A model generated the notes under the pieces. It saw nothing but the letters and a program-made list of their open reading frames with translations. It did not search any database and was not told the DNA's origin. DNA of 64,000 nucleotides from NCBI GenBank assembly GCA_900659855.1, contig CAACVI010000023.1, positions 1-64,000 on the forward strand, given 5' to 3'. This document shows, in pieces, positions 15,234 to 50,881 of the stretch (positions within the stretch are counted from its first letter, which is position 1; every line of letters begins with the position of its first letter). A program made the translations under genes and the position numbers. Origin of the DNA: Candidatus Desulfarcum epimagneticum (GTDB taxonomy: Bacteria > Desulfobacterota > Desulfobacteria > Desulfobacterales > CR-1).

Positions 15234-15404
15234 TTTATCAGGCTTTGATGGCGTCGTAAAAAATCCGATCTACGGCGTTGCGGCGCTTATTTTTATTCGA
15301 GGCATACTACATGTATTGCCTCGAATAAAAATAAGCGCCACGCCTTGTATATCGAATTTTTAACTTAGCCATCCCAAGCGTTTTTACGAGTTTATCAGGC
15401 TTTG
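15234..15404. mobile_element. MITE-like palindromic element
   Basis: A 14-bp direct repeat TTTATCAGGCTTTG (15234-15247 and 15391-15404) brackets about 143 bp. Inside, GCGCTTATTTTTATTCGAGG pairs with its complement across a short loop, interrupted by a single unpaired base. The ends share TCGTAAAAA in inverted orientation. No coding capacity is present. This has the form of a non-autonomous mobile element with target duplication or a large REP-like structure between two operons. Confidence 0.5.
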
Positions 15405-16085: not shown

Positions 16086-17247
16086 ATCCGGCCCGGCCTT
16101 TTCTTTTTTTCTTTCGGAAAAAAACATGGAGGTGGACGAGGCCTCTGAAATCTGGGGGGCCTTTCTTCCCGAAGACCGCCGGATGAGCCCGGGCCGACGG
16201 CGCCGCGTCGCCTATGGCGATTATTTTTCAGCCGCCCGGGACTGTGTCGAGGCCCGTCTTGACCGGGTCCTTGCGCCTGCGATTTCCAGGAAAATCGGCG
16301 TTTCGACCCGGACGGCGGACATTGAGAGCGTGGCTGTTTTTTTAAAAAAGCACGGCGCCTTTTACCATCCCGCCAGAATCGAGGCCCGGGCCCGGGGCCG
16401 TGTCTGCGCCTTTGTGTGGAACGCGGCTTTTTCAGACGCCGGAAAGGCGCGGGTCAAAGAAGAGGTCCGGGCGCTCCGGGCGCTCAACGCCGGTCCTTTC
16501 CCGGGTTTTTTGCCCGAGGTTTTCGATGTCGGGGAAATCCCCGCCGGCGCCGGCGGCCGGCTTTCGTTTTTTTTAGGGGAGTGGTTCGAGGGCCACAGCG
16601 AGCTTCATCTTTCCCGCCGCAGGGACGACTCCGCGGGCCTGAAGGTGTGGAGCGAGACCGGTCCCCGCTTTTTTCTTTCCCCGAAGCTGGAATGGGAATT
16701 CTACGAGCGCTCGGCGTTTATCCTCACCTGCTTTTACAATCCGGAGACATTTGAGCAGGTGTTTCCCTGGCATCACGCCGCCGGGGATTTTATCGTCAAA
16801 CCCATGGACGGCGGGCTGGACGTCCGGCTTGTCACGGCCCGGGGGCGCGGGGCGCTGTTCGGCAGCGAAGAGCCCGACCCGGAGGCCGTTTTCCAGGGAC
16901 TGGCCTTTTTCTGGATTAATCTGTCCATCCGGACGCGTCTGGACCGGATGGACGGAACCGGCGAGACGGCGTGGGCCGGCGACAGGGCCGCGCCGGCCGC
17001 CTGGTCCGGTTTTTTAAAGGCGCTGAATGAGAAAGAGCGCCGGGGAGACATGCCCCCTTCCGCCGCCGGTTTCCGGGATTATTTTTCCTCCCTTTCCCGC
17101 TCCGATATTCTCGATATGGCCATGGCCGTTTTGGGCTCATACAACCCCCGGGCGCCGGATATTCCCATCATCGAAAAAAACATGGAGGCGCACGCCCGTT
17201 TAATGGCCGATCTCATGGGCCCGGACCCCGCCCCCCGGGGGTTTTAA
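16075..17247 (+). CDS. Conserved-looking protein of unknown function
   Basis: 390 aa from the ATG at 16075, which overlaps the stop of the TPR gene. It is GC-rich and Arg-rich, with segments such as FLKKHGAFYHPARIEARA, FLPEVFDVGEI and FYERSAFILTCFYNPE. No membrane segment, signal peptide, metal motif or nucleotide motif is seen. I do not recognise the family. Its coupling with the TPR gene suggests the two proteins act together. Confidence 0.65.
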   Translation: MTDKSGPAFSFFLSEKNMEVDEASEIWGAFLPEDRRMSPGRRRRVAYGDYFSAARDCVEARLDRVLAPAISRKIGVSTRTADIESVAVFLKKHGAFYHPARIEARARGRVCAFVWNAAFSDAGKARVKEEVRALRALNAGPFPGFLPEVFDVGEIPAGAGGRLSFFLGEWFEGHSELHLSRRRDDSAGLKVWSETGPRFFLSPKLEWEFYERSAFILTCFYNPETFEQVFPWHHAAGDFIVKPMDGGLDVRLVTARGRGALFGSEEPDPEAVFQGLAFFWINLSIRTRLDRMDGTGETAWAGDRAAPAAWSGFLKALNEKERRGDMPPSAAGFRDYFSSLSRSDILDMAMAVLGSYNPRAPDIPIIEKNMEAHARLMADLMGPDPAPRGF

Positions 17248-17388
17248 ACGCCGCGCCGGCCGGTCCGTTTATCCGCTTATTCTCCTGCTGAAACAATCAT
17301 GCCTTTTTGTGTCAGACCTTATGTCACGGGCGCTTCATTTAATTAATAAGTTTAAGAGAGTATATTTTTTGAGTATTGTTTTTTTATA

Positions 17389-17418
17389 TTGACAATATGC
17401 GCGGGGGGGGGGTATATA
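17389..17418 (+). promoter_or_regulatory. Predicted promoter of the magnetosome operon with a G10 spacer tract
   Basis: TTGACA (17389-17394) is followed after 18 bases by TATATA (17413-17418). The spacer contains ten consecutive G (17403-17412). The first gene of the operon starts 35 bases further on. A homopolymer at this place can change spacer length by slippage and so switch promoter strength. The rest of 17248-17388 shows no gene. Confidence 0.6.
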
Positions 17419-17453
17419 AAAAAAAATGGAAATTAAAATCGGGAGATGAAACC

Positions 17454-17774
17454 ATGGCCCAAAAAGCGATGATTAAGGACAACAAAGCGTTGTGCCGTCA
17501 CTGCGACACAAGAATGACGCTGTTGACAATGAATAAATTTTACGGCAAATGGCCCTGGGCGCTTCTCGGGCTGGGACTGCTGGCCTTTTTCTTCATTCAC
17601 TTTGGAGGCCCCATCATCGGGCTGCCCATGATCCTTCTGGGCGTTTATCTTGTCACGGCAAAGCACACCATCAGCATGTGTCCGGAATGCGGTTACTATT
17701 TTAAGGTATTAACCGCGAAAAGAAAAAAAACGGTAATATCGGTTAAGGAACCCCAAACAAACAACAGGAATTGA
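17454..17774 (+). CDS. Small membrane protein with zinc-ribbon-like Cys pairs, first gene of the magnetosome operon
   Basis: 106 aa starting MAQKAMIKDN after a GGGAG site. CRHCD (residues 15-19) and MCPECGYYF (about 78-86) flank a hydrophobic stretch of two membrane segments (WALLGLGLLAFFFIHF and IIGLPMILLGVYLV). The two Cys pairs could bring together one zinc or iron site at the membrane face. I do not know a named magnetosome protein like it. The stop lies one base before the actin gene, so it is in the operon. Confidence 0.65.
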   Translation: MAQKAMIKDNKALCRHCDTRMTLLTMNKFYGKWPWALLGLGLLAFFFIHFGGPIIGLPMILLGVYLVTAKHTISMCPECGYYFKVLTAKRKKTVISVKEPQTNNRN

Positions 17775-22702: not shown

Positions 22703-22743
22703 TACGATAGCGGCGATTTGGCTGACAGCGGAGGTCCTTTTTG

Positions 22744-23421
22744 ATGATGACAGGGTCGTCAACAATGAATGAAAAACATGATGAAATTTTAGAAGCCATC
22801 TGGACATCCAATGAAAACAAAAAATTCACACTCGCGGATATTAAAAACAAATGCGAGGTTGAATTTTCCCAGGCGGATATTGATCAACTGGAAAAAGAGG
22901 GACTGATTGTCACCAGCGCCGATAAAATTTTGTTTTCATCCAAAGGCGAACAAAAGGCCAGACATATCATGCGGCGGCACAGGCTTGCGGAATCCCTGAC
23001 CTCCAGCATTTTAAAACTGAAAAACGCGGAGATGGAGAAAGTGGCGTGCAAGGTGGAGCATTATCTGCAGCCGGAAGTCGAGGAAGCCATTTGCACATTG
23101 CTGGGCCATCCTGAATTTTGCCCGGACGGCAAATCCATTCCCAGGGGAAAATGTTGCCGAAAAGGCCTGAGAGAGGTCAATAACGCCGTGGTCAGCCTGA
23201 CGGACCTTGAGCCCGGGGAAACAGGAAAAATCACGTATGTCAAACCGGGGAGCCACTCGAATTTGCACCAGTTGATTTCATTTGGCTTAAATCCCGGGAC
23301 CCTGGTGACCTTGCACCGGAAAAGCCCTGTCTTTTGCATTAAATTTGAAAACACAGAGCTTGCCATTGATGAAAATATCGCGAATAATATTTTTGTGTGG
23401 AAAATATCAAACAGCGCCTGA
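22744..23421 (+). CDS. DtxR/MntR-like protein with FeoA-type domain
   Basis: 225 aa from the ATG at 22744 (GGAGGT eight bases upstream; TTG at 22741 is an alternative). The N-terminal winged helix (FTLADIKNKCEVEFSQADID) and dimerisation region (MRRHRLAESLTSSIL, EVEEAICTLLGHPEFCPDG) follow the iron-dependent repressor plan. The C-terminal 70 residues (LTDLEPGETGKITYVKPG, FGLNPGTLVTL) form the SH3-like FeoA domain. An unusual CPDGKSIPRGKCC carries extra Cys. It could sense ferrous iron and control the cluster, or assist the FeoB-like transporter. It sits right after the dinucleotide tract. Confidence 0.75.
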   Translation: MMTGSSTMNEKHDEILEAIWTSNENKKFTLADIKNKCEVEFSQADIDQLEKEGLIVTSADKILFSSKGEQKARHIMRRHRLAESLTSSILKLKNAEMEKVACKVEHYLQPEVEEAICTLLGHPEFCPDGKSIPRGKCCRKGLREVNNAVVSLTDLEPGETGKITYVKPGSHSNLHQLISFGLNPGTLVTLHRKSPVFCIKFENTELAIDENIANNIFVWKISNSA

Positions 23422-27013: not shown

Positions 27014-27942
27014 AACATAACGCCTGCAAAAAATGCATTGATTCGGTTGGAAACGTCAATGTCATCGGCAATGTGCTGATGATCGCCTTAAAGGGATACC
27101 TGGGGGTTGTCGGCGGATCCAAGGGGCTGATCGCCGACGCGATTCATTCCTGCGCGGACCTGCTGGCCACCATTGTCATGATCATCGGGCTTAAGATTTC
27201 AAACCGGGAAACAAGTCGTGAATATCCGTATGGATACGGCAAGGCCGAGCATGTGGTGGCCATTGTCATCTATATCTTCCTGTTTGTCATCGCCGGTTAC
27301 ATTATTTACGAAGGGGTTCTGGCCATTATCGAAGGCAGGGAGATTGTCCCCTGCGCCATCGCCGCGTGGGGGGCGGTCCTGTCCATTTTTATCAACGAGC
27401 TGATGTTTCGGCTCACGCACTGCGCCGGAACCCAGGCGAACAGCCCGGCCATCGTCGCCAAAGCATGGGAAACCCGGACCGATGTGTATTCATCCATCGC
27501 GGTGGTCATAGGCATTATCGGGGCCAGACTCGGATTTCATTTCATGGATCCTTTGGCCGCGGTGGTGGTGGGGCTGCTGATTTTCAGAACCTGTGTTGAA
27601 ATGACCCGGGAAGCCGTCCTTTCCCTGATGGACAGGATCCCCGAAGGTTTCAGCGTCGACGAGCTTCAAAAACGGATCGCCGCCAGGATTCAGGATATCG
27701 TGGTGGACATCGTGGATGTCAAGGTCAGAGACCTGGGGCCGGATCTTGAATATATTGTGAAAGCCATGGTTCCGGACTGCATCAGCATCGCCGAAGCTGA
27801 GAAGGTGAAAGATGAAATTCGAAGAGATGTGTCCGAGCTTGAGGAAAGAAAAACAGTTGTTGTGGTCCAGCTTCTGGCGTTTAACAATGATAAAAAACAG
27901 AATCAGACAGTCATAAAGAGGGAAGCCGATGAAACAGCCTGA
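27010..27942 (+). CDS. mamB: MamB/MamM-type cation diffusion facilitator, first copy
   Basis: 310 aa from a GTG at 27010. The N-terminal CKKC and the segment YPYGYGKAEHV are typical of MamB and MamM. The TM2 metal site DAIHSCAD is complete. In TM5 the pattern ETRTDVYSS keeps the Asp, but the usual His is replaced by Glu. NSPAIVAKAW matches the MamB block NSPAIIANAW that I recall. The C-terminal cytoplasmic domain (about 210-300) is present. It would move ferrous iron into the magnetosome. The MamB versus MamM assignment is uncertain. Confidence 0.75.
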   Translation: MKHNACKKCIDSVGNVNVIGNVLMIALKGYLGVVGGSKGLIADAIHSCADLLATIVMIIGLKISNRETSREYPYGYGKAEHVVAIVIYIFLFVIAGYIIYEGVLAIIEGREIVPCAIAAWGAVLSIFINELMFRLTHCAGTQANSPAIVAKAWETRTDVYSSIAVVIGIIGARLGFHFMDPLAAVVVGLLIFRTCVEMTREAVLSLMDRIPEGFSVDELQKRIAARIQDIVVDIVDVKVRDLGPDLEYIVKAMVPDCISIAEAEKVKDEIRRDVSELEERKTVVVVQLLAFNNDKKQNQTVIKREADETA

Positions 27943-29440
27943 ATTTGAATTTTGCATGGGCCACTTTAAAATAGCGATCGCTGTTTTAGCCGTTTTTATA
28001 GTGATCGTCTTGTATTGGGCCATGTCCACCTGCAAGATGGACCGGGTCAACCAGGAACAGGTTCTCACCCTCGCCGCGGCCGGGGCGCCCGCGGGCGGAA
28101 ATATCACCATGAAGGCCAAAATGACCCACAAGTACTGGGGCAATTGCAATATGTGCCATGTGACCGTTGATGTTCCCAAAAAACCCGTGTCCCAGGTGTT
28201 TCAAGGGCCTCCCATCTCGGTGAGCGCCAAAATGACCCACAAGTACTGGGGCAATTGCAATATGTGCCACCAGGTCTCAGGGGGTCTTAAACAGCGGTTT
28301 GCCCCGGCGCCGGCCGCGAAGGTTGCCGCGCTGGCGGCGGGCGCGCCTCCCCCCATCATGGCCAACGCCAAGCCCACGCATCCCGACTGGGGAACCTGCT
28401 CCAATTGCCACCAGATTTTAAAACCCGGCCAAAGGCGGGGCAGAGCCGCCGCGCTGGCGGCCTTCGCCAAATTTTCCGCCCGCTCCGTCGGGTTGGATCT
28501 TAAAAACGTCAATTCCGCTTTAATGGGAAAATGGGGGCTTTCAGATGAGGAGGGCGTCCTCGTGCTGACGGTTCATCCCGGCTCCATCGCCCAAAAGGCG
28601 GGATTTAAAAAGGGGGATGAAATCGTTCGGTTGAATGACGCCAGAATTGACACCATCCATGATTTTGATATCCAGCTTGCCTTGTCGAAACCCGATGACG
28701 TGGTGAAAGCGGCCATATACAGGGGGAGGAGAAGCAAAAATATTTTTATGGACTTAAAACCGCAAGGCAATCTTGCCGCAGCCACGAGCGCCCCCATGAC
28801 CCAGAACCGGATCGAGACCCTGGCGGAGCGATTCAATGTGCCCAAGACCCAGGCGGCTGTGGAACAGGCCCTGCGGCGGGCGCGGCCCGCGGCGGCGAAC
28901 GTTCCCATGACCCACAACCGGATCGAGACCCTGGCGGAGCGGTTCAATGTGCCCAAAACCCAGGCGGCTGTGGAGCGGGCCCTGCGACAGGCGCGGCCCG
29001 CGGCCCTGGCCAATTCCGGAAAGGTGATTGTGGCGGCCCTGGGGCCGGGCCTGTACAGTCAGACCTCGCTTAATTTTGAGAACAGCCCGTATTTCATTCT
29101 CTACGACCCGGTGACCCAGCAATATAAATCCCTGGTCAATCCAAATTACAACGACACCCGGGGCAATTCCAGACAGACCAGTCATTTGATGGTTGACCTG
29201 GGGGCCTCCAATGTCATCGCGGGCAGTTTCACATCCCGGAGCGCGGACACCCTGAGAATGCTTCGCCTGAATCTGTATTCCGGCGTGACAGGCGTGGTGA
29301 AAGACGTGTTAAATATGTACAAAAACGGACAGATACAGCAGACAAATATTCATGCGACCACAAGAGCCGGTTTTTTGCCGACTTTGCCGACTCCGCCGAC
29401 TCCGCCGGCGCCGGCCGGCGCCCGCGGCGCTATATTTTAA
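27929..29440 (+). CDS. Triple-magnetochrome, PDZ and NifX-like fusion protein
   Basis: 503 aa. One membrane anchor (about 13-32) is followed by three magnetochrome c-haem motifs: C73-C76-H77, C110-C113-H114 and C157-C160-H161. The first two lie in the identical context THKYWGNCNMCH. A PDZ domain spans about 185-278. Then a 37-residue tandem repeat (RIETLAERFNVPKTQAAVE, twice, about 289-362) precedes a NifX/NifB-type iron-cluster domain (KVIVAALGPGLYSQTS, then NLYSGVTGVVKDVL). MamP has magnetochrome and PDZ parts, but I know of no NifX part. It likely oxidises or handles iron at the growing crystal. Confidence 0.75.
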   Translation: MKQPEFEFCMGHFKIAIAVLAVFIVIVLYWAMSTCKMDRVNQEQVLTLAAAGAPAGGNITMKAKMTHKYWGNCNMCHVTVDVPKKPVSQVFQGPPISVSAKMTHKYWGNCNMCHQVSGGLKQRFAPAPAAKVAALAAGAPPPIMANAKPTHPDWGTCSNCHQILKPGQRRGRAAALAAFAKFSARSVGLDLKNVNSALMGKWGLSDEEGVLVLTVHPGSIAQKAGFKKGDEIVRLNDARIDTIHDFDIQLALSKPDDVVKAAIYRGRRSKNIFMDLKPQGNLAAATSAPMTQNRIETLAERFNVPKTQAAVEQALRRARPAAANVPMTHNRIETLAERFNVPKTQAAVERALRQARPAALANSGKVIVAALGPGLYSQTSLNFENSPYFILYDPVTQQYKSLVNPNYNDTRGNSRQTSHLMVDLGASNVIAGSFTSRSADTLRMLRLNLYSGVTGVVKDVLNMYKNGQIQQTNIHATTRAGFLPTLPTPPTPPAPAGARGAIF

Positions 29441-29455
29441 TGTAAGGGGCTTAAA

Positions 29456-31306
29456 ATGAAGAAAATCCCACATTTTGAAGTTTTTCTTGCGCCGGTGACC
29501 GTGCTGGCGTTCGCCGGTCTGTTGTCCCTGATGTATGGCTGGGTCGGCACCATGAACAGCCTGGGCCAGGAAACAAGAGAAACGCCGGAGGCGCCTGAGA
29601 CAAGAATTGTCGCCATGAACACCCAGGCGAATCCCATACCGGAAAGCATCGCCATCAACACGGGCATTGGAAATGGCCAGATGCGGCTCCTTGATGTCAA
29701 CGCTCCGGCCGTCCCAATGGGCGTGGGCGGCGCCGCCGGCCAGATGCGTTTTGTCGCCAATCAGCCCGCCCCTCGCCCGGAAGGGCTTTCAATCAACACG
29801 GGAATCGGAAACACGCGGATGTCGCTGAGGGACGTGAACACCGCTTTTCCCTCGGGAATCGGCGGGGCCCAGGGCCAGATTTTTTTGGCGGACACGCCGC
29901 CCTTTTCTTCGGGCGTCGGGGGAACCCGGGGTCAGATTCAATTCATCAACAACGCGGCGACAGCCCCCAGACCCTATCTCGGCCTTGAAGTCAGCGCCAT
30001 CAATGGCGCCATGGCCAGACAGATGGGGCTTCCCACAGGCGTCGGGGTTTACGTGAAGAGCGCCATACCCGGCTCCCCGGCCCGGAAGGCCGGATTTTCA
30101 AAAGGAGACATACTGATCAAGTGCGACTTGAAAAATGTGGGGTCCCTGGATCAGTTGAGCAAAATTATTTCCCTGCGCAAGCCCGGCGATGTCATCAAGT
30201 GCGTGGTCCTGACCCATAACGGAAGAAAAAAATCCTTTCACGCAAAATTGGCGGACGGCCCCACAGGGTTCAGACAGGTCGCGGCGGCCCGGGTCAATCA
30301 GAAGCTGTGGATTGGAATGGAAGTCCAGAATATTGACGCGGTGATGAGGCGCCAGATGAGCCTGCCGAAAAAAGGCGGCGTGATTGTCAGTTATCTTAAC
30401 GCCCATTCCCCGGCCGGCAGAGCCGGAATAAAAGTCGGGGATGTGGTTCGAAGGGTGAACGGCGTTCATATCAAGGAAGCGGAGCAGTTTAAAGCCACTG
30501 TGGCAAAGGCCCTGACAGGCAAGCCCCTGGAGCTGGTTCTTCTCCGGGGGGGGAAAACCGCCCGGGTCCGTCTCAACCCGGGACCCAGGCCCGCGGTCAC
30601 GCAAACCATACCCAAAGTGCCCGCGGCGGAAATGGTCGTGGAAGGCAGCTGGATCGGCATGGATGTGTCTGAGCTGAAACCGGGGGAAACAGCGGAATTC
30701 GGACTCCCGGCCGGCTCCCGGGGCATTGTGGTCAACGATGTGGAAAGCCCGCCCGCGACCACGGTGGGGTTCCAGACCGGGGATTTAATCACGGCGGTCA
30801 ATTCCACTCCCACCCCGACCATGAAGACATTTGTTTTGGCCACCAAAGGCCAGAGCGGGGCGGTGGTGGATATTCTAAGGGGCAACCGGCACATGTATAT
30901 CACGGTTCCGCCGCCCGGGTTCACCCAGCAGGGGACGCCGGTTAAACAGGGCCAGAATAATCCGCTGAAACAGGTGGCGGCCGTCATGCCCGGCCCCCAT
31001 GTCGTGGGGGTCTTGTCCGATCAAAATTCCCTTCGCGGGAACGTGAGCGATGAAAGCCGGGCCCGGTATTTGATTTTATTTGATCCCCAAAACAACAGAC
31101 ACACCAGCGTGAAGGTGGTCCCGGGAGAGCAAATCCGGGAAGTTTTATCCCGCCATCGCGCCACAACGCTGATTGTGGCCGGCATCGGGAACAGGGCGAA
31201 AAATTCCCTGACCGGGCACAGGTTAAAGGTGTACAGCGGGGTTTTAGGCAACGTGGTGGAAGCGTTTCAACTTTATCAGGCAGGCCGCCTTGTGGCGGCG
31301 AGGTAG
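29456..31306 (+). CDS. Triple-PDZ protein with C-terminal NifX-like domain, magnetosome cluster
   Basis: 616 aa. A membrane anchor (about 8-30) is followed by Gly-rich repeats of the type INTGIGN...L.DVN and GVGG..GQ (50-165). Three PDZ domains lie near 172-265, 283-375 and 395-475 (for example GSPARKAGFSKGDILIK and SPAGRAGIKVGDVVRRVNG). The C-terminus (about 500-610) is NifX-like (HRLKVYSGVLGNVVEAFQL). There are no haem motifs and no protease domain. It is therefore like the PDZ part of MamE separated from the catalytic part, fused to the same iron-cluster-type domain as its neighbour. It probably organises MamE-type proteases. Confidence 0.7.
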   Translation: MKKIPHFEVFLAPVTVLAFAGLLSLMYGWVGTMNSLGQETRETPEAPETRIVAMNTQANPIPESIAINTGIGNGQMRLLDVNAPAVPMGVGGAAGQMRFVANQPAPRPEGLSINTGIGNTRMSLRDVNTAFPSGIGGAQGQIFLADTPPFSSGVGGTRGQIQFINNAATAPRPYLGLEVSAINGAMARQMGLPTGVGVYVKSAIPGSPARKAGFSKGDILIKCDLKNVGSLDQLSKIISLRKPGDVIKCVVLTHNGRKKSFHAKLADGPTGFRQVAAARVNQKLWIGMEVQNIDAVMRRQMSLPKKGGVIVSYLNAHSPAGRAGIKVGDVVRRVNGVHIKEAEQFKATVAKALTGKPLELVLLRGGKTARVRLNPGPRPAVTQTIPKVPAAEMVVEGSWIGMDVSELKPGETAEFGLPAGSRGIVVNDVESPPATTVGFQTGDLITAVNSTPTPTMKTFVLATKGQSGAVVDILRGNRHMYITVPPPGFTQQGTPVKQGQNNPLKQVAAVMPGPHVVGVLSDQNSLRGNVSDESRARYLILFDPQNNRHTSVKVVPGEQIREVLSRHRATTLIVAGIGNRAKNSLTGHRLKVYSGVLGNVVEAFQLYQAGRLVAAR

Positions 31307-31319
31307 ACAGGATTTTTCA

Positions 31320-33152
31320 ATGCTGAGACACCTTTGCGCTTTAGTCCTTTTCATGCTTTCGGCGTCCCATGCCTGGCCGGCCCAGACAAGGGCCAATGAT
31401 CCGTTGCCCGGCTTGCAGGAAGACATCAACTCCGCCGTGGCGATTGTCAGGCCTTCGGTGGCGGGCATTGTGGCGCGGAAAAAAAGCGGCGCCGACGGGC
31501 CTGGCGGCGCTTTGCTGTGGTTTGACAGCATTGGCTCCGGAGTGATTTTGGATGAGCAGGGGCATATTTTAACCAATTACCATGTGGTGGACAACGCGCG
31601 AAAAATAGATGTGACTCTTTGGCGCTCGCCCCCCCACACTTATACGGCGACGATCATAAAAAAGGATCCCTCAATGGACTTAGCGCTGCTGAAAATACAA
31701 AGCGCCGACCGCCTTATCCCGGCTCGCTTCGGAGATTCTTCGAAGACCCGCATAGGCGATCTGGTCCTGTCTGTGGGCTCTCCATTCGGCTTTGATCACA
31801 CGGTGTCCATGGGGGCGGTCAGCGCCGCCAAAAGAGATCTGTTTATAAACGGCAAAACATATGCGGGCATGATTCAGACAGACGCCGTGATCAATGAGGG
31901 AAACAGCGGGGGGCCCCTGGTGGACATCCATGGCCGGGTTGTGGGAATCAACACGGCCATTTATTCCCCGGGCGCCGCCTATATCGGCATTGGATTCGCC
32001 ATTCCCATTAATCAGGCCAAACATTTTTTCACACCGTTCACCGGGGCCGTCCCCGCGGCTGTAAAATTTCCCGCCATCAATCCTTTGCATAAATTCCCCA
32101 TTGACATGAACAAAGGCAGGCCCAATGATTTTAACCACACCACTTTCAGGGACTGCGCGCAATGCCATATCATCCAGGTCAAAAGCCCCATGATTGTCGG
32201 GCATAAACGCCCCCATCCTTTTGTCGGCGCCTGCGACAAATGCCATATCGTGGAGCGGACCCATGCCACGGGAGCGCCCGTCACGGTGGCGGCCAGGGGC
32301 CCGGGAACCCTTGACTTGTCATACCACTCCGATTCCTGGTCTTTTTTCAAGCATATCCTGTTAAAGGCGCTGCCGCTGTTTTTCGTGTCCTCCATTATTT
32401 TTTCCCTCCTGGGACTGGGAGGAGGCTTTTTTTATGTGCCCATCCTCATCATGTGTCATCTGGATTTTCACACGGCCAGCACAACCAGCCTTTTGATGAT
32501 CACAACAGGCTCGCTGTCCGCGCTGTATGTCTTTAAAAAATCCGGGATGGTGGATCTCAAACTGGTCTCCGCGCTGGGGACGCCGGCCATGATCGGCTCT
32601 TTCGCGGGGGGCATTCTTTCAGACGCCTTTAATGTTTACACGCTGTATATCCTTTTTTCAATCACCCTGTTTGCCGCTTCATACATGATGGCGCAGGACA
32701 AAAAAATTCTGGAGGGCCGGTATTATCGGCTGGAGGCGAGTCCCCTGGTCATGCATCGGAGATTCAACGGGCACGAGTATTCCATTGATTTGGTTCTGGC
32801 GGGTTTCCTGGTGCTGTCTGTGGGGTTCTTAGGCGGATTGCTGGGCATCGCCGGGGGGTGGTTTCTGGTTCCCATGCTGGTTTTGCTGTTCTCCCTGCCC
32901 ATGAGAATCGCGGTGGCGACCTCTTCATTCATTGTGCCGCTGAACGGGCTCGCCGGTTTTGCGGGGCATGGATTTGTCGGGCACATCGACTGGCAGCTGG
33001 CGTTGCCCCTGTGCGCCCTGGCGGCCATTGGGGCCCAGATCGGGGCCCGGATTTCAATCAAAACCGAAACCAATGTGCTGCGGGTCATTTTCGCGTTTAT
33101 CCTGAGCCTTGTGGCGGTCTGGATGCTGACCAAGAACGTGTTTGTTTTTTAA
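31320..33152 (+). CDS. mamEO: MamE/MamO fusion: trypsin-like protease, two magnetochromes, TauE-like membrane domain
   Basis: 610 aa from the ATG at 31320 (signal MLRHLCALVLFMLSASHAW). The HtrA-type protease has an intact triad: H88 in NYHVV, D120 in SMDLALL and S196 in GNSGGP. Two magnetochrome haem motifs follow (C279-C282-H283 and C305-C308-H309). The last 270 residues are an eight-span TauE/SafE-type transporter domain (LLGLGGGFFYVPIL, GLLGIAGGWFLVPM) as in MamO. This architecture joins MamE catalysis with MamO transport. It should process magnetosome proteins and control crystal maturation. Confidence 0.85.
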   Translation: MLRHLCALVLFMLSASHAWPAQTRANDPLPGLQEDINSAVAIVRPSVAGIVARKKSGADGPGGALLWFDSIGSGVILDEQGHILTNYHVVDNARKIDVTLWRSPPHTYTATIIKKDPSMDLALLKIQSADRLIPARFGDSSKTRIGDLVLSVGSPFGFDHTVSMGAVSAAKRDLFINGKTYAGMIQTDAVINEGNSGGPLVDIHGRVVGINTAIYSPGAAYIGIGFAIPINQAKHFFTPFTGAVPAAVKFPAINPLHKFPIDMNKGRPNDFNHTTFRDCAQCHIIQVKSPMIVGHKRPHPFVGACDKCHIVERTHATGAPVTVAARGPGTLDLSYHSDSWSFFKHILLKALPLFFVSSIIFSLLGLGGGFFYVPILIMCHLDFHTASTTSLLMITTGSLSALYVFKKSGMVDLKLVSALGTPAMIGSFAGGILSDAFNVYTLYILFSITLFAASYMMAQDKKILEGRYYRLEASPLVMHRRFNGHEYSIDLVLAGFLVLSVGFLGGLLGIAGGWFLVPMLVLLFSLPMRIAVATSSFIVPLNGLAGFAGHGFVGHIDWQLALPLCALAAIGAQIGARISIKTETNVLRVIFAFILSLVAVWMLTKNVFVF

Positions 33153-33189
33153 CCGGATAAAAAAAACAAGAAAAAATATTGAAAAGCCA

Positions 33190-34080
33190 ATGAAATTCAA
33201 AGCCAAAACAATCACCAAAGATCAATGGACAGGGTTTATCGTGGTCATTGTCCTTTTTTCCGGCATACTGCTTTACGCCAATATCAAGGGGGCGTCGCCG
33301 CAGCAGGGCCAGGTCCCTCTTCCTGTGTATCCGCCAGGCCCCGCGGCCCCGGCCGGGGTTTTCTCTCCGCCGGTCCAGGCGCCCGCTCCCGCGTCGGCGC
33401 TTTCGCCGGCCGCGACAGCCAAAGCGGTGCAGGAGGCGATCAATGAAGCGGTGGCGGGGGTTCGGCCCTCTATTGTCGCCGTTACCGTTCCCGCCGCCAA
33501 AGTGGCCGGGACGGCCGATCCGTCAGGCTTGACATTTGTGCGGCCCAACCGGACAGGCCCCAACGTCACAGGGTCCGGCGTGATCATAGATCCGGCGGGG
33601 TATATCCTGACGACCTTTCAAACCGTTGGAAAGGCGGAGAAGGTGAAAGTCAAGCTTTACGGCGTCCTTCAAAGCGAATATATGGCTGAAGTGGTCGCCG
33701 TTGACAGCAAAACGGACCTGGCGCTTTTGAAAATTGAAACACCGGGGGTGTACCCGGCGGCCATGATCGGCAATTCGGATTCCATTGAAATCGGGGATAT
33801 CGTATTTGCCATCGGCGCCCCCTATGGATTTTCAAGATCGGTTTCCATGGGGATTGTCAGCGCCAACCGGCGGAAAATTTCCATCAAGGACCGCTGGTAT
33901 CCGGACCTGATTCAGACAGACGCCGCCATCAACAGGGGCGATGACGGGGGGGCGCTGATCAACATCCGGGGAGAGGTGATCGGCGTCAATATGGCCTATT
34001 TTATACCGGGAAACCACTTTACCGGCATCGGGTTCGCCCTGCCCATCAATGACGCGGCAAACTTATTGGGGAGGATGTAA
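33190..34080 (+). CDS. mamO: MamO-like catalytically dead trypsin-like protein
   Basis: 296 aa from the ATG at 33190, with one membrane anchor (about 14-30), a Pro/Ala-rich linker and an HtrA-type fold. The catalytic His is replaced by Gln (Q144 in TTFQTV) and the catalytic Ser by Asp (D252 in RGDDGGAL), while the Asp (D176) is kept. It cannot be a serine protease. In known magnetotactic bacteria MamO is a pseudoprotease that binds metal and helps start crystals. The fold is paralogous to the preceding gene (IQTDA..N.G..GG). There is no TauE domain. The ribosome site is weak. Confidence 0.8.
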   Translation: MKFKAKTITKDQWTGFIVVIVLFSGILLYANIKGASPQQGQVPLPVYPPGPAAPAGVFSPPVQAPAPASALSPAATAKAVQEAINEAVAGVRPSIVAVTVPAAKVAGTADPSGLTFVRPNRTGPNVTGSGVIIDPAGYILTTFQTVGKAEKVKVKLYGVLQSEYMAEVVAVDSKTDLALLKIETPGVYPAAMIGNSDSIEIGDIVFAIGAPYGFSRSVSMGIVSANRRKISIKDRWYPDLIQTDAAINRGDDGGALINIRGEVIGVNMAYFIPGNHFTGIGFALPINDAANLLGRM

Positions 34081-37360: not shown

Positions 37361-37815
37361 AAAAAACCCATAACGAACACACCCTGGCGGCGGCTGAACT
37401 GGGGACCCAATGCGCCATCTGCCCGTTGAGGGGACTTTTCCCGGAGGTTTGCAAGCTTCACCGCGCGCAGATGATGAAAAAAAACGCCAGGGGCGCCCCT
37501 TTCGTAAAAAACGAATGGGTCTGCTGGGGGGCCAAAATCGTCACAGGAGCGGGAGTCGGCCTGGCCGGAGCCGTGGCGGGCATGGCTGTTGTGCCGGCGC
37601 TTGGGGTGAAAGCCCTGCTGGGGCATATGATCGCTTACCAGATCGCCGGCGCCGCTTCCGCCACAGGCGCCGGAGTGAATGTGGTGACGCATGCGAAAAA
37701 GAGGACGTGCGAAACAGACAGCGGAAAGCCACATCGCAGGATCGGCTTAAAAAGACAGTATACCCGATTGCCCTATACACTTTCCGAAAAAGGGAGAAAA
37801 AATAATGCCAGCTAA
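37357..37815 (+). CDS. Gly/Ala-rich membrane protein with Cys motif, magnetosome cluster
   Basis: 152 aa, overlapping the transporter stop by 4 bases. The N-terminus holds CAICPLRGLFPEVC, which could bind a cluster or zinc. A Gly/Ala-rich hydrophobic hairpin follows (VTGAGVGLAGAVAGMAVVPA, IAGAASATGAGVNVV), and then a basic tail. Gly/Ala hairpins of this style are found in MamC, MamD and Mad proteins that contact the magnetosome membrane or crystal. I cannot name it. Confidence 0.6.
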   Translation: MKKTHNEHTLAAAELGTQCAICPLRGLFPEVCKLHRAQMMKKNARGAPFVKNEWVCWGAKIVTGAGVGLAGAVAGMAVVPALGVKALLGHMIAYQIAGAASATGAGVNVVTHAKKRTCETDSGKPHRRIGLKRQYTRLPYTLSEKGRKNNAS

Positions 37816-38164
37816 AGTGAGTTCTTATCAAAAGACAAAGGCCGCTATCAGAAAGAAGAAAGCCCAGGAGTACATGATGGGAAAGGACCTTTTTGATGAT
37901 GATATCGAACAACTTTCTTCAAAACGGAATTTTGGCATAGTCGATGTGGCAAAGGTCGGCACCGGGGTCGTGATCGGGGGGGGGCTTGGCATTCTTTCCG
38001 GCGTGGCCGCCATCGCCATTTCCGCCAGCGCCGCGGAAATTATAATCGGGGGGGTTGTCACCAAGATCGCCGGCGTGGTCGGGGGAGCCGCCGGTCTGGG
38101 GTGGGGGCTTCATTCCGTTGAGAAGAACAATCGTGGAACCAGCGCGAAAAGGGGGGGGAAATGA
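37805..38164 (+). CDS. Gly-rich membrane protein, magnetosome cluster
   Basis: 119 aa, overlapping the previous gene. A charged N-terminal half (KAAIRKKKAQEYMMGKDLFD) is followed by a Gly/Ala/Ile-rich hydrophobic hairpin (GVVIGGGLGILSGVAAIAIS and IGGVVTKIAGVVGGAAGL). It is similar in style to the preceding gene and may be a divergent paralogue. Its DNA holds three homopolymer G tracts of nine, seven and eight bases, the last at the end of the gene, so it is a likely slippage hot spot. Confidence 0.6.
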   Translation: MPAKVSSYQKTKAAIRKKKAQEYMMGKDLFDDDIEQLSSKRNFGIVDVAKVGTGVVIGGGLGILSGVAAIAISASAAEIIIGGVVTKIAGVVGGAAGLGWGLHSVEKNNRGTSAKRGGK

Positions 38165-44547: not shown

Positions 44548-45273
44548 TCAGGTTTCGATTTTATCTTTCATTCTAAAGCTTTGTCCTTCAATCAGTATGG
44601 TTTCGGCATGATGCAGAAGGCGGTCGAGTATGGCCGAGGCCAGGGTGGAGTCATTGTTGAATATTTCCGACCAGTCTTTGAAGGCTTTGTTGGTGGTGAT
44701 GATGGTGGAGCTTGTCTCATATCGTTCGCTGATAATCTGAAAGAGCAGCTTGGCCCCGGCATGGTCCACGGGCAGATAGCCCAGCTCATCCAGGATCAGA
44801 AGTTTGGGTTTGCAATATTTTTTCAGCTCCTCTTTCAGGCGGCCGGTATTTTTTGCCGCTGACAGATTGTTGATGACGCTGATGGCTGTGGCAAACAGAA
44901 CCGAATGGGATTTCAGGCAGGCGGCGTATCCCAGGGCCGCCGCCAGGTGGGTTTTGCCCAGGCCCACGCCTCCCAGAAAGATCACATTGGCCTTTTGTTC
45001 AATGAACTTGAGGTGAAACAGACTTTGGACATGGGCCTTGTTGATTTTTTTGGGCCAGGTCCATTTAAACTGCTCCAGGGTTTTGATCTGGGGGAAGCGG
45101 GCCATGCGTATGCGCCGCTGTGTGGATCGGTCGCGTTTCAGATTGGCTTCGCCTGTCACAAGCTCTTCAAGATAGTGTGTGTGGCTCCATTTCTCATTCT
45201 CAGCGTGTCTGGCCAGGGGCTCATAATTTTGACGCATGAAAGCCAGTTTCAGGTATTTGAGTTTCTCGTCCAT
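44548..45273 (-). CDS. istB: IstB-type transposition ATPase
   Basis: 241 aa. Walker A is FLGGVGLGKTHLAAALG, Walker B is KLLILDELGYLPVDHAGAKL, and the ISERYETSSTIITTNKAF block follows, all diagnostic of IstB. It acts with IstA in IS21 transposition, choosing the target and remodelling the transposase. It starts 5 bases after istA ends. Complete. Confidence 0.9.
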   Translation of the reverse strand: MDEKLKYLKLAFMRQNYEPLARHAENEKWSHTHYLEELVTGEANLKRDRSTQRRIRMARFPQIKTLEQFKWTWPKKINKAHVQSLFHLKFIEQKANVIFLGGVGLGKTHLAAALGYAACLKSHSVLFATAISVINNLSAAKNTGRLKEELKKYCKPKLLILDELGYLPVDHAGAKLLFQIISERYETSSTIITTNKAFKDWSEIFNNDSTLASAILDRLLHHAETILIEGQSFRMKDKIET

Positions 45274-45278
45274 GGTTT

Positions 45279-46736
45279 TTATCCTTTGTCGTAAAGGGTC
45301 ATATCAGGCTCCTGGACAGACAGGTCCAGCAGGTCTTTTTTATGGGTCAGGCGCAGGGCGCCGGGCTCGGGCAGTTTTCTTGTTTTTTGTTCCAGTATAT
45401 TGGCGATGTATTCCGAGGAGAAGGCATGGAAGGCAAAGGCATCCTCAATGGCTTCGGCCACCGGCTCCCAGCCGTATATTTCGCTCAAACCCACTATTTT
45501 CGTAATGTGGTGAAGGGGGTTCATGCGGCGCTGCCGGAGCTTTTGATAATAGGACTCTGATTTGGGGGAGAGCATGAGAAATCGGGCGAATATCTTTTGG
45601 TTTTTGGCCCGTTTTCTTTGGGCGATGAGTTCTTTGGGATGATCCGGATCCTCAAAGTCTTTGTGGCGGTCATAAGAGCGCGGATGCCGGGCGATGAGTT
45701 TGTTTTCATGATAAAGGCAAAGGCGGTCGGGGTATGCCTTTAAATCAAGGAGTTCCCCGGCATATTCGGCGGGAACGGAATATCGGTTGGAATCAAAGCT
45801 GACCCGGAACTGTCGGCCGGCCCTTATTTTGGATATGACGGCGATGTCATAATCATGGGGGGAGACAGGAGTCAGGCATTTGCGTTCCTGTTCAAACATA
45901 TCTGCGGGTCTTTTTTTGGTCTCGCCATGTATGCGAACGTTGGCGATGGCGTCCAGCCAGTTTTGAATGGCCGGTTTTATGATTTTAAAATGCGGGATTT
46001 CCAGGCCTGCCAGGAAGTTTTTTTTGACATACCCCACGCCGCTTTCCACCCGGCCTTTTTCGTTGCCTTTTCCCACGCCGCACGGCGCGATGACAAAGCC
46101 GTAATGGTTTGCGAAATCAAGGTATTTGGGGTTAAAAACCGGATCATGGCCCACAGCCCTTTTCAAAACCGCCGACTTTAAATTGTCCACCATGATTTTT
46201 TTCGGAACGCCGCCAAAAAAGTCAAAGGCGTTTTGATGACAGCGCAAAAAATGCTCCATGGTCTGCGAGACGGTGAACTCCACATACATCATGCGGCTGT
46301 GACATAATACCATGACGAAAAAGCTCAGCCGCCGTCTGGTCTCCCCCACATCCACAGAGCCGTATGATCCCCAGTCCACCTGGGCGCATTCCCCCGGGGC
46401 AAAGGAAAGGGTCAGAAAGGGCTTTGTTTTGCGGGGCCTTATTTTGGCCGCATACTCCTTGACGATGCTGTAGCCGCCTGTGAAGCCTTCTTCCTGAATG
46501 CGCTGGCATATCTGCATGGCGCTGTAAGAATGAATCTCCATCAGTGAGGCGATATAATCTTTGAACGGGTCCAGCTTGCTTTTTCTTTTGGACCGGCGTC
46601 TGGGCCGGTATTGTTCGCATTCAAGCCATTTTTTTACCGTCCGGACGTCCAGCCCCGTTCGATCTGCTGTCTGGGAGGGTTTAAGTCCCTGTTTGTTATC
46701 CTGTCTGATTTTGCAAAAAAGTTCATAGCTGATCAT
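45279..46736 (-). CDS. istA: IstA-type transposase
   Basis: 485 aa. The N-terminal helix-turn-helix (GLKPSQTADRTGLDVRTVKK) precedes the integrase core: first Asp in CAQVDWGSYG, second Asp in KIMVDNLKSAV and Glu in GNEKGRVESGVGYVKK. The C-terminal tail is the usual IS21 form (FSSEYIANILEQKTR). It overlaps the accessory gene upstream by 4 bases. Intact. Confidence 0.9.
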   Translation of the reverse strand: MISYELFCKIRQDNKQGLKPSQTADRTGLDVRTVKKWLECEQYRPRRRSKRKSKLDPFKDYIASLMEIHSYSAMQICQRIQEEGFTGGYSIVKEYAAKIRPRKTKPFLTLSFAPGECAQVDWGSYGSVDVGETRRRLSFFVMVLCHSRMMYVEFTVSQTMEHFLRCHQNAFDFFGGVPKKIMVDNLKSAVLKRAVGHDPVFNPKYLDFANHYGFVIAPCGVGKGNEKGRVESGVGYVKKNFLAGLEIPHFKIIKPAIQNWLDAIANVRIHGETKKRPADMFEQERKCLTPVSPHDYDIAVISKIRAGRQFRVSFDSNRYSVPAEYAGELLDLKAYPDRLCLYHENKLIARHPRSYDRHKDFEDPDHPKELIAQRKRAKNQKIFARFLMLSPKSESYYQKLRQRRMNPLHHITKIVGLSEIYGWEPVAEAIEDAFAFHAFSSEYIANILEQKTRKLPEPGALRLTHKKDLLDLSVQEPDMTLYDKG

Positions 46737-48212: not shown

Positions 48213-48241
48213 TTGACAAGGGATCATATTGATTCTATAAG
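48213..48241 (+). promoter_or_regulatory. Strong sigma70-type promoter of the dsr operon
   Basis: TTGACA (48213-48218) and TATAAG (48236-48241) are spaced by 17 bases. The dsrA start is 166 bases downstream, so the transcript has a leader, with an apparent AGGAGGTGA at 48301-48310 and the true site GGAGG before dsrA. The interval 47999-48212 is AT-rich with no gene. Confidence 0.7.
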
Positions 48242-48406: not shown

Positions 48407-49720
48407 ATGGCAAAACATGAAACTCCGATGTTGGATCAGCTTGAATCAGGGCCTTGGCCGAGTTTTGTGTCCGACATTAAGAGGGAAGCTGATTCACGGA
48501 CGAAAAATGAGAGAAATATCGATTACCAGGTGCCGCAGGATGTGTGCGAGGACATACTGGGCGTGCTGGAGCTTTCCTTTAAGCACGGAAGAACCCACTG
48601 GAAACACGGCGGAATCGTCGGCGTTTTCGGCTATGGCGGCGGCGTCATCGGCCGGTACTGCGACCAGCCTGAAATGTTTCCCGGGGTGGCCCACTTTCAC
48701 ACCGTCCGCGTCAACCAGCCCGCCGGCAAGTTTTACACCACGGAATATCTGAAACAGCTCTGCGATCTCTGGGATTTCCGGGGAAGCGGCATCACCAATA
48801 TGCACGGCTCCACAGGCGACATCGTCCTCCTGGGAACCACCACTCCCCAGCTGGAGGAAATTTTCCATGAGCTGACTCACAACATGAACCAGGACCTGGG
48901 CGGCTCGGGATCCAACCTCAGAACCCCCTCGGACTGCGTGGGAGAAGCCAGGTGCGAGTATGCCTGCTATGATACCCAGGCCATCTGCCATGAGCTGACC
49001 AACGAGTACCAGGACGAGCTTCACCGGCCCGCCTTCCCGTACAAGTTCAAGTTCAAATTTGACGGATGCCCCAACTGCTGCGTGGCCTCCATCGCCCGGG
49101 CGGATATGTCTTTTATCGGAACATGGAGAGACAACATCCGCATCGACCAGGAAGCCGTGAAAGCTTATGTGGGCGGCGAAATCGCTCCCAACGGCGGGGC
49201 CCACGCGGGCCGCGACTGGGGCGCCTTCGACATCCACAAAGAGGTCATCGACCTTTGCCCCACCAGCTGCATGTGGATGGAAGGCGATACCCTGAAGATA
49301 GACGACAAGGAATGCACGCGCTGCATGCACTGCATCAACGTCATGCCCCGCGCTTTGAGGATCGGCGAGGACCGCGGATGCTCCATTCTCGTGGGCGCAA
49401 AGGCCCCCATCCTTGACGGAGCCCAGATGGGATCCCTGCTTGTTCCTTTTGTCAAGGTGGAAGAGCCCTATGACGAGATCAAAGAAGTCATCGAAAGCCT
49501 CTGGGACTGGTGGATGGAAGAAGGCAAGAACCGGGAGAGAATCGGAGAGCTGATCAAACGCCAGGGCTTCCAGAAAATGCTTCAGGTCACGGGAATCAAA
49601 CCGGCGCCGCAGCATGTGCTGGCTCCCCGGACCAACCCGTACATCTTCTGGAAGGAAGACGAAGTTGACGGCGGGTGGGAGCGCGATATCAACGAATTCA
49701 GAAAACATCATCAGAGATAG
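48407..49720 (+). CDS. dsrA: Dissimilatory sulfite reductase, alpha subunit
   Basis: 437 aa, the usual length. The sirohaem/[4Fe-4S] cluster Cys appear in CVGEARCEYAC and CPNCCVASIARAD. The inserted ferredoxin domain follows (CPTSCMW, ECTRCMHCINVMP). With DsrB it forms the cytoplasmic enzyme that reduces sulfite to a DsrC trisulfide in sulfate respiration. GGAGG precedes the ATG. It is full length, with no frameshift. Its presence fixes the lifestyle as sulfate or sulfite respiration. Confidence 0.97.
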   Translation: MAKHETPMLDQLESGPWPSFVSDIKREADSRTKNERNIDYQVPQDVCEDILGVLELSFKHGRTHWKHGGIVGVFGYGGGVIGRYCDQPEMFPGVAHFHTVRVNQPAGKFYTTEYLKQLCDLWDFRGSGITNMHGSTGDIVLLGTTTPQLEEIFHELTHNMNQDLGGSGSNLRTPSDCVGEARCEYACYDTQAICHELTNEYQDELHRPAFPYKFKFKFDGCPNCCVASIARADMSFIGTWRDNIRIDQEAVKAYVGGEIAPNGGAHAGRDWGAFDIHKEVIDLCPTSCMWMEGDTLKIDDKECTRCMHCINVMPRALRIGEDRGCSILVGAKAPILDGAQMGSLLVPFVKVEEPYDEIKEVIESLWDWWMEEGKNRERIGELIKRQGFQKMLQVTGIKPAPQHVLAPRTNPYIFWKEDEVDGGWERDINEFRKHHQR

Positions 49721-49732
49721 GGGGTGTCGACC

Positions 49733-50881
49733 ATGGCATTTATTTCTTCAGGATATAATCCGGACAAACCGATGGAAAACAGGATCACCGACATCGGTCC
49801 TAGAAAGTATGATGAGTTTTATCCGGAAGTTATCAAAAATAACAAAGGCAAATGGAAGTACCATGACATACTGGAGCCCGGCGTTCTGGTTCATGTGTCT
49901 GAAACCGGCGACAAAGTCTTCACCGTCCGGGTCGGCGGCGCCCGTCTGATGAGCGTGTCCCACATTCGGGAGCTTTGTGAAATCGCCGACAAACACTGCG
50001 ACGGCTACCTGCGTTTCACCACCCGGAACAACATTGAGTTCATGGTGGACAGCCAGGACAAGGTCAAACCCCTCAAAGACGATTTGGCCGGCCGGAAGTT
50101 TGACGGGGGAAGCTTCAAGTTCCCCATCGGCGGAACCGGCGCCGGCGTCACCAACATCGTCCACACCCAGGGATGGATTCACTGCCACACCCCGGCCACG
50201 GACGCCTCCGGCCCCGTGAAGGCCACCATGGACGTTTTGTTTGACGATTTCCAGGACATGCGGCTCCCGGCTCAGCTTCGGGTGTCTCTGGCCTGCTGCC
50301 TCAACATGTGCGGCGCGGTTCACTGCTCCGATATCGCCATCCTGGGCTATCACAGAAAGCCCCCGATCCTGGATCATGAGTACCTGGACAAAATGTGCGA
50401 GATTCCTCTGGCCATCGCCGCCTGTCCCACCGCGGCCATCAAGCCGTCCAAGGTGGAGCTGCCCAGCGGAGACACCGTCAAGAGTGTGGCGGTCAAAAAC
50501 GAACGGTGCATGTTCTGCGGAAACTGCTACACCATGTGCCCCTCCATGCCCCTGTCCGACGACGTGGGCGACGGAATCGTTTTGATGGTGGGCGGCAAAG
50601 TGTCCAACCGGATCAGCATGCCCAAGTTCTCCAAGGTCGTGGTGGCTTTTATTCCCAACGAGCCCCCGCGCTGGCCGAAAACCACGGACGCCATTAAAAA
50701 GATCGTGGAAGTGTACTCGCAAAACGCCAACAAGTACGAGCGTGTGGGCGAGTGGGCCGAGCGGATCGGATGGGAAAGGTTCTTCGACCTTTGCGAGCTG
50801 GACTTCACCCATCACCTGATCGACGATTTCCGCGATCCGGCGTACTACACCTGGCGTCAATCGACCCAGTTTAAGTTCTAG
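49733..50881 (+). CDS. dsrB: Dissimilatory sulfite reductase, beta subunit
   Basis: 382 aa from the ATG at 49733, 12 bases after dsr[17 protein letters not shown] supplies the sirohaem-cluster Cys, and the ferredoxin part is [16 protein letters not shown]. It pairs with DsrA in an alpha2-beta2 enzyme that binds DsrC. All elements look intact. Confidence 0.97.

Follow-up and report, generated by a model that had tools for sequence, protein, structure and literature searches.

The question raised by this locus is whether a run of ten G lying between the −35 and −10 hexamers of a putative promoter could act as a switch of magnetosome formation. A first-pass annotation had suggested this by analogy with the porA promoter of Neisseria meningitidis, and had proposed that a tract longer or shorter by one or two G would alter transcription of the whole magnetosome cluster and could give on/off magnetosome formation in a population. 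The locus lies in a 64-kb stretch of DNA, referred to here as the window, from the draft genome (3.26 Mb in 52 contigs) of Candidatus Desulfarcum epimagneticum, which the excerpted text of PMC13103400 describes as an ectosymbiotic, magnetotactic member of the Desulfobacterales. In our samples of the order and of relatives, the genus and family of this organism are represented by its own genome alone. We note that a flagellin gene was not found in this genome, which is 99.7% complete, and that this is unusual for a free-swimming magnetotactic bacterium.

The site and the gap in which it lies

Direct reading of the forward strand confirmed the annotated layout ahead of the magnetosome cluster, with TTGACA at 17389–17394 and TATATA at 17413–17418 separated by an 18-bp spacer (17395–17412) made up of ATATGCGC followed by ten G (17403–17412); the exact number of G is insecure, the sequence being a draft. 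The site lies in a 206-bp intergenic gap (17248–17453, 40% GC) which runs from a conserved upstream gene to the first cluster gene and forms the left junction of the inserted cluster. A T-tract (17379–17385), which is also present in the dsr promoters of relatives, is located directly upstream of the −35 hexamer, and the −10 hexamer is overlapped by TATAAA (17415–17420), for which the spacer would be 20 bp. TATATA is followed by an A-rich stretch, a GGGAG ribosome-binding site (17441–17445) and the ATG at 17454. The same strand of the gap also holds a second promoter-like site, TTTAAT-17-TATATT (17338–17366), in which poly-G is not involved.

A perfect palindrome, ATATTGACAATAT, spans the −35 hexamer (17386–17398, no strand assigned); no other copy free of mismatches occurs in the window, and the palindrome is a possible operator. 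The core of the site is also flanked by an 11-bp AT-only inverted repeat (T7ATAT/ATATA7) in the DNA strand (z −2.76). A structured RNA or hairpin was considered and rejected, as Rfam gave no convincing match and the RNA fold was no better than that of shuffles (z −0.38). We also rejected a coding extension, in which an ATG at 17397 in frame with the first gene via GGG GGG GGG GTA would make the tract a site of translational slippage, because this ATG is without a ribosome-binding site, whereas the ATG at 17454 has a good one, and because the open frames of homologs are without a matching extension (by eye).

The magnetosome cluster and the dsr locus

The magnetosome gene cluster behind the site is 24.7 kb long, with every gene on the forward strand, and ends at 42119. 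Its first gene (17454–17774) encodes a 106-aa membrane protein for which the zinc-ribbon matches are weak, and its homologs sit within the magnetosome clusters of eight relatives. The remainder of the cluster (17776–42119) includes MamK-family actins (17776 and 18879), MamA (23640), MamI (25150), MamQ (25525), CDF transporters (27010 and 36452), MamE/MamO-like proteases and PDZ proteins (27929–34080) and FeoB (40092), and MamB was likewise recognised among the products. The mam genes are found in a single array in which the second MamK exceeds the curated cut-off, while MamA, MamI, MamQ, MamB and MamE/O are best-family matches with scores under their cut-offs. Also encoded in the cluster (22741–23421) is a metal-dependent repressor of the DtxR type to which a FeoA domain is fused, and this DtxR-FeoA protein may regulate the cluster.

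In the eight relatives, the homolog of the first gene directly follows an apparent counterpart (by eye) of the open reading frame (ORF) at 37805–38164, so that the two look like direct neighbours; in the window 20 kb separates them, which indicates that the cluster has been rearranged. It should be noted that a G8 run (38151–38158) is located a few bases ahead of the stop of this ORF and just before the start of the gene at 38161, and slippage in this run could alter the overlap of the two.

Gene order indicates that the magnetosome cluster is inserted between the upstream gene and dsrAB. Of 76 genomes of the order, 62 have a homolog of the upstream gene (16117–17247), that of the window counted, and dsrA lies downstream of the homolog in 23 of the 30 loci examined (29 relatives plus the genome G200). 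In G200 the order, without a magnetosome cluster, is dapA, a TPR gene, the upstream-gene homolog, dsrA and dsrB; in the window, dapA, the TPR gene and the upstream gene are to the left of the magnetosome cluster, and dsrA and dsrB (48407–50881, forward strand), which come next after the upstream gene in most of the relatives examined, are to the right. On this comparison, the sulfite-reductase locus has received a horizontal insertion, which lies within the region 16117–48407. An IS21 pair (44548–46736) together with the magnetosome cluster parts the conserved gene from dsrAB, and a long inverted repeat, formed by GGCGCTTATTTTTATTCGAGGCA and its near complement, is found in the interval between dapA and the TPR gene (15252–15345).

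Comparison with the dsrAB promoters of relatives

The site at 17389 was not listed by a simple sigma-70 scan of the window because TATATA is without the conserved T6. Using a generic sigma-70 matrix (that of E. coli) it scored 8.80 compared with 9.44 for 17338–17366, and 101 of 500 shuffled gap sequences scored at least 8.80. The slightly higher generic score of the latter would fit a transcription start elsewhere, either at 17338–17366 or through read-through from the upstream gene, which is on the same strand and 206 bp away, and the poly-G would then be part of an untranslated leader and leave initiation unaffected. However, generic scans were dropped as the wrong yardstick once a locus-specific profile from relatives existed, and this profile puts the 17389 site far above all others in the window except for the dsrA promoter; we regard a start elsewhere as quite improbable.

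The profile was built on the interval between the upstream gene and dsrA in relatives, which holds a strongly conserved promoter (TTTTTATTGACAA...TATAt). The consensus of 22 such sites is cTTTTTTATTGACAAgaa..aa.ATTaATTtTATAt, with TATA exactly 17 bp past TTGACA in 21 of the 22, and the same spacing is found in the window's own dsrA promoter, a canonical TTGACA-17-TATAAG (48213–48241, forward strand) which served as a comparison site. A two-block profile was trained on these 22 promoters, none of which is from the genome of the window, and was run over both strands of the whole window with spacers of 16–19 bp (the TTGACA of L188, the second of L196 and the first of L166 were removed by hand as their context was not dsr-like; L183 was left out because the locus ends too early, and L169, L172, L174, L178, L182 and L194 because TTGACA was absent within 450 nt).

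With this profile the 17389 site ranked first in the window at 26.3 bits, followed by the dsrA promoter at 22.8 and the next site at 17.0, and none of 2000 shuffles of the gap reached this score (maximum 22.1). Across 380 kb of the same genome, one site scored at least 17 and none at least 22, and in 334 kb of magnetosome loci from relatives no site reached 20. A search for TATTGACAA-N15-17-TATA returned six occurrences in the genome compared with none for the reversed control. Two of these are the 17389 site and the dsrA promoter, and the other four precede, by eye, two tRNA genes, an electron-transfer flavoprotein (ETF) subunit gene, where the spacer is 18 bp, and an ATPase gene. On the profile comparison and the insertion behind the upstream gene, the core at 17389–17418 is very probably a real promoter and, as the annotation had it, very probably the one that leads the magnetosome cluster.

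The site shares with the dsrAB promoters of the 22 Desulfobacterota relatives the T-tract, ATTGACAA, the TATAT core and a place after the same upstream gene, and by these features of sequence and position it has a dsr-type core at the dsr place. It differs from them in that it would drive a magnetosome cluster and in that its hexamers are, as assembled, 18 rather than 17 bp apart. Furthermore, the dsrAB promoters keep ATTaATTt in the spacer, whereas the window's site has GCGC plus G10, and as this motif is replaced by GCGCGGGGGGGGGG we refer to a dsr-type core and not to a full dsr promoter. When the whole 37-base profile was used, the 17389 site was absent from the top eight of the window, and outside the core the gap did not align with the sequence upstream of dsrA. 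A junction copy of the dsrA upstream region was rejected, as blastn found nothing convincing for the gap in the rest of the window, and the TATTGACAATAT common to the gap and G200 (+103 after the upstream gene) was too weak for use (E 0.15).

With the spacer motif missing, descent from a dsr promoter is not proven. Nonetheless, finding a core of the relatives' dsrAB type at the same place makes it probable that a promoter of dsr type, captured or copied, drives the cluster, with dsrAB retaining its own copy, and we infer that the core was captured from a dsr promoter. The T-tract, ATTGACAA and TATATA would represent this core, and the AT-rich conserved part of the spacer would have been replaced by GCGC plus the G run.

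The G tract and its likely effect on expression

Eleven distinct runs of at least ten G are found in the genome compared with a Markov expectation of 1.2–1.9 per 444 kb of sampled sequence, or about 9–14 per genome, which suggests that the genome neither gathers nor avoids such runs. In the non-coding sample, the Markov expectation is 0.07–0.13 G10 per 114 kb, which scales to approximately 2e-4 for the 206-bp gap, and a G10 here is unlikely by chance, with the qualification that the gap was chosen post hoc. The arrangement TTGA-N4-18-G6-N0-8-TATA has a single occurrence in the genome, at this site, where the −35 and −10 hexamers enclose a homopolymeric G run. With the number of runs at chance level, the genome shows no excess of simple-sequence loci. 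G runs longer than seven were absent from the 260 bases before the first-gene homolog in the eight relatives and from the 700 bases before mamK in 19 loci of relatives, and poly-G was absent from the 22 dsr promoter sites. This absence at equivalent places indicates that the combination of promoter and tract belongs to the lineage of the window.

Across the order, TTGACA-N0-10-G8-N0-4-TAT was found at seven sites in seven of 291 genomes, the window's site included, compared with one site for the reversed control. One of the other six (L162, G200:C195), which is probably non-coding, has a G8 run, a 16-bp spacer and a TPR gene downstream, and another (L160, G018:C20), also probably non-coding, has a G9 run immediately ahead of a small ORF. 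A shared poly-G promoter regulon across the order was rejected, as three of the sites (L161, L163 and L165) are inside ORFs and a fourth (L164) is at an ORF start.

The length of the tract as assembled is unreliable. We used codon usage to detect changes of reading frame at runs, setting aside ambiguous cases (80 of 324 controls and 13 of 21 G9 runs), and found a change at 4 of 244 random control positions within ORFs. At coding G/C runs the counts were 1/44 for a length of seven, 2/31 for eight, 1/3 for nine and 3/4 for at least ten, and at A/T runs of at least nine they were 0/18. Coding G/C runs of 9–11 break conserved genes exactly at the run in a GDP_Man_Dehyd-family gene, dctM, aspS and mutS, and in the first three the Pfam family resumes past the break in another frame. 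The split aspS (G000:C45:226915-228670; L015, L131, L133) is broken at a C10 run, with positions 1–530 followed by 524–585 in the next frame, and is the sole full-length match in the genome; as aspS is needed by the cell, some run lengths in the assembly must be wrong. The mutS gene (G000:C1:263524-266101; L080, L134, L135, L137) is split at a G9 run into 2–233 and 231–840. This reflects either an error of the draft or a genuine mutator state, and if the split is real, slippage would be frequent. Homopolymer lengths that break essential genes in this way call for caution when switches are read from draft genomes.

The direction of the shifts corresponds to one base surplus (or two missing) in five of the seven cases and to the opposite in two, and as five of seven runs are apparently one base too long, the tract may really be G9 with a spacer of 17 bp. 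This would favour an ordinary spacer of fixed true length, probably G9, with the tenth G a sequencing or assembly error. However, two coding runs of ten (L009 and L010) stay open or in frame, which indicates that not every run is wrong, and the promoter-like site before the ETF gene also has an 18-bp spacer; we find a spacer of fixed length, with the tenth G an error, rather unlikely.

Simple arithmetic gives spacers of 17 bp for G9 and 18 bp for G10. The strict 17 bp of the relatives' dsr promoters suggests that spacing matters, and on this rule (21 of 22 sites) gaining or losing one or two G should affect promoter strength, in line with the altered transcription that the annotation had proposed. 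The extension of this to the whole cluster is not established, as the cluster contains gaps of 120–280 bp, some with moderate generic-matrix sites which could be internal starts. In the excerpted text of PMC8547445, knockout of PmamH in Magnetospirillum gryphiswaldense silenced only mamH, with a minor effect, and internal promoters serve the remainder. Given such internal promoters and the gaps seen here, switching of the whole cluster by one or two G is not a safe claim, and slippage would probably tune expression instead. PmamH resembles the window's site in leading a long magnetosome operon (mamAB), but belongs to another phylum and is described in that text with a minor knockout effect and no mention of poly-G.

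The analogy drawn with porA is correct for architecture, as in both cases poly-G lies within the spacer and its run length sets the distance between the −35 and −10 hexamers. The two differ in that length variation and an effect on expression have been shown for porA, and in that porA drives a surface antigen whereas the window's site precedes an organelle cluster in a genome without an excess of such runs. The tprL promoter of Treponema pallidum also contains poly-G, the length of which affects reporter expression.

A phase-variable promoter, in which G slippage shifts the spacer over about 16–20 bp and switches magnetosome expression in a subpopulation, would be in keeping with some of this evidence. 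A run of ten G is within the length range that slips elsewhere, the strict dsr spacing implies sensitivity, and the assembly has mutS broken in two at a G9 tract. A shorter spacer abolishes transcription in porA, which shares the architecture (excerpted text of PMC7864442). Weighing against this are the single promoter of this kind in the genome, the chance frequency of poly-G runs, the lack of conservation of the run in relatives, and a leading promoter in M. gryphiswaldense that most of the operon, in the text available, does not need. Loci of this type are numerous in phase-variable species. The title of PMC5084427 refers to 115 N. meningitidis genes, which provides a comparison for the number of phase-variable loci. 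On/off magnetosome formation is thus speculation, with the poly-G missing in relatives, no genomic excess, a lone promoter and an unreliable length, and on present evidence we consider a switch unlikely, and less likely than passive tuning or a one-base assembly uncertainty. It would be very improbable that a captured sulfite-reductase-type promoter, a slippery G tract and a mutS gene off at G9 combine to give fast drift and stochastic magnetosomes in a non-flagellated, possibly host-attached population.

The explanation we favour, and hold to be probable, starts from what is directly observed (the sequence and position of the site, its match to the profile of dsr promoters, and the lack of the tract in relatives) and has the site as the leading sigma-70-type promoter of a cluster inserted in the dsr neighbourhood, with a G run that can slip passively and would then tune expression, and with no evolved switch. 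RNA polymerase would use this promoter with a true length of about nine or ten G, the resulting spacers of 17 or 18 bp both being near the optimum, and the chief effect of passive slippage would be to move expression of the first genes up or down.

Among open PubMed Central papers, four mention both magnetosomes and phase variation, but judged by title and abstract none treats the two together, and none of the papers listed for magnetosomes with homopolymers, slipped-strand or contingency loci dealt with this subject. If the tract varies, it would be the first case, within those papers, in which phase variation through a promoter spacer affects a bacterial organelle. Even without variation, the locus would illustrate how a magnetosome cluster that has moved horizontally could gain expression in a new host, through insertion behind a promoter resembling that of the host's main respiration genes.
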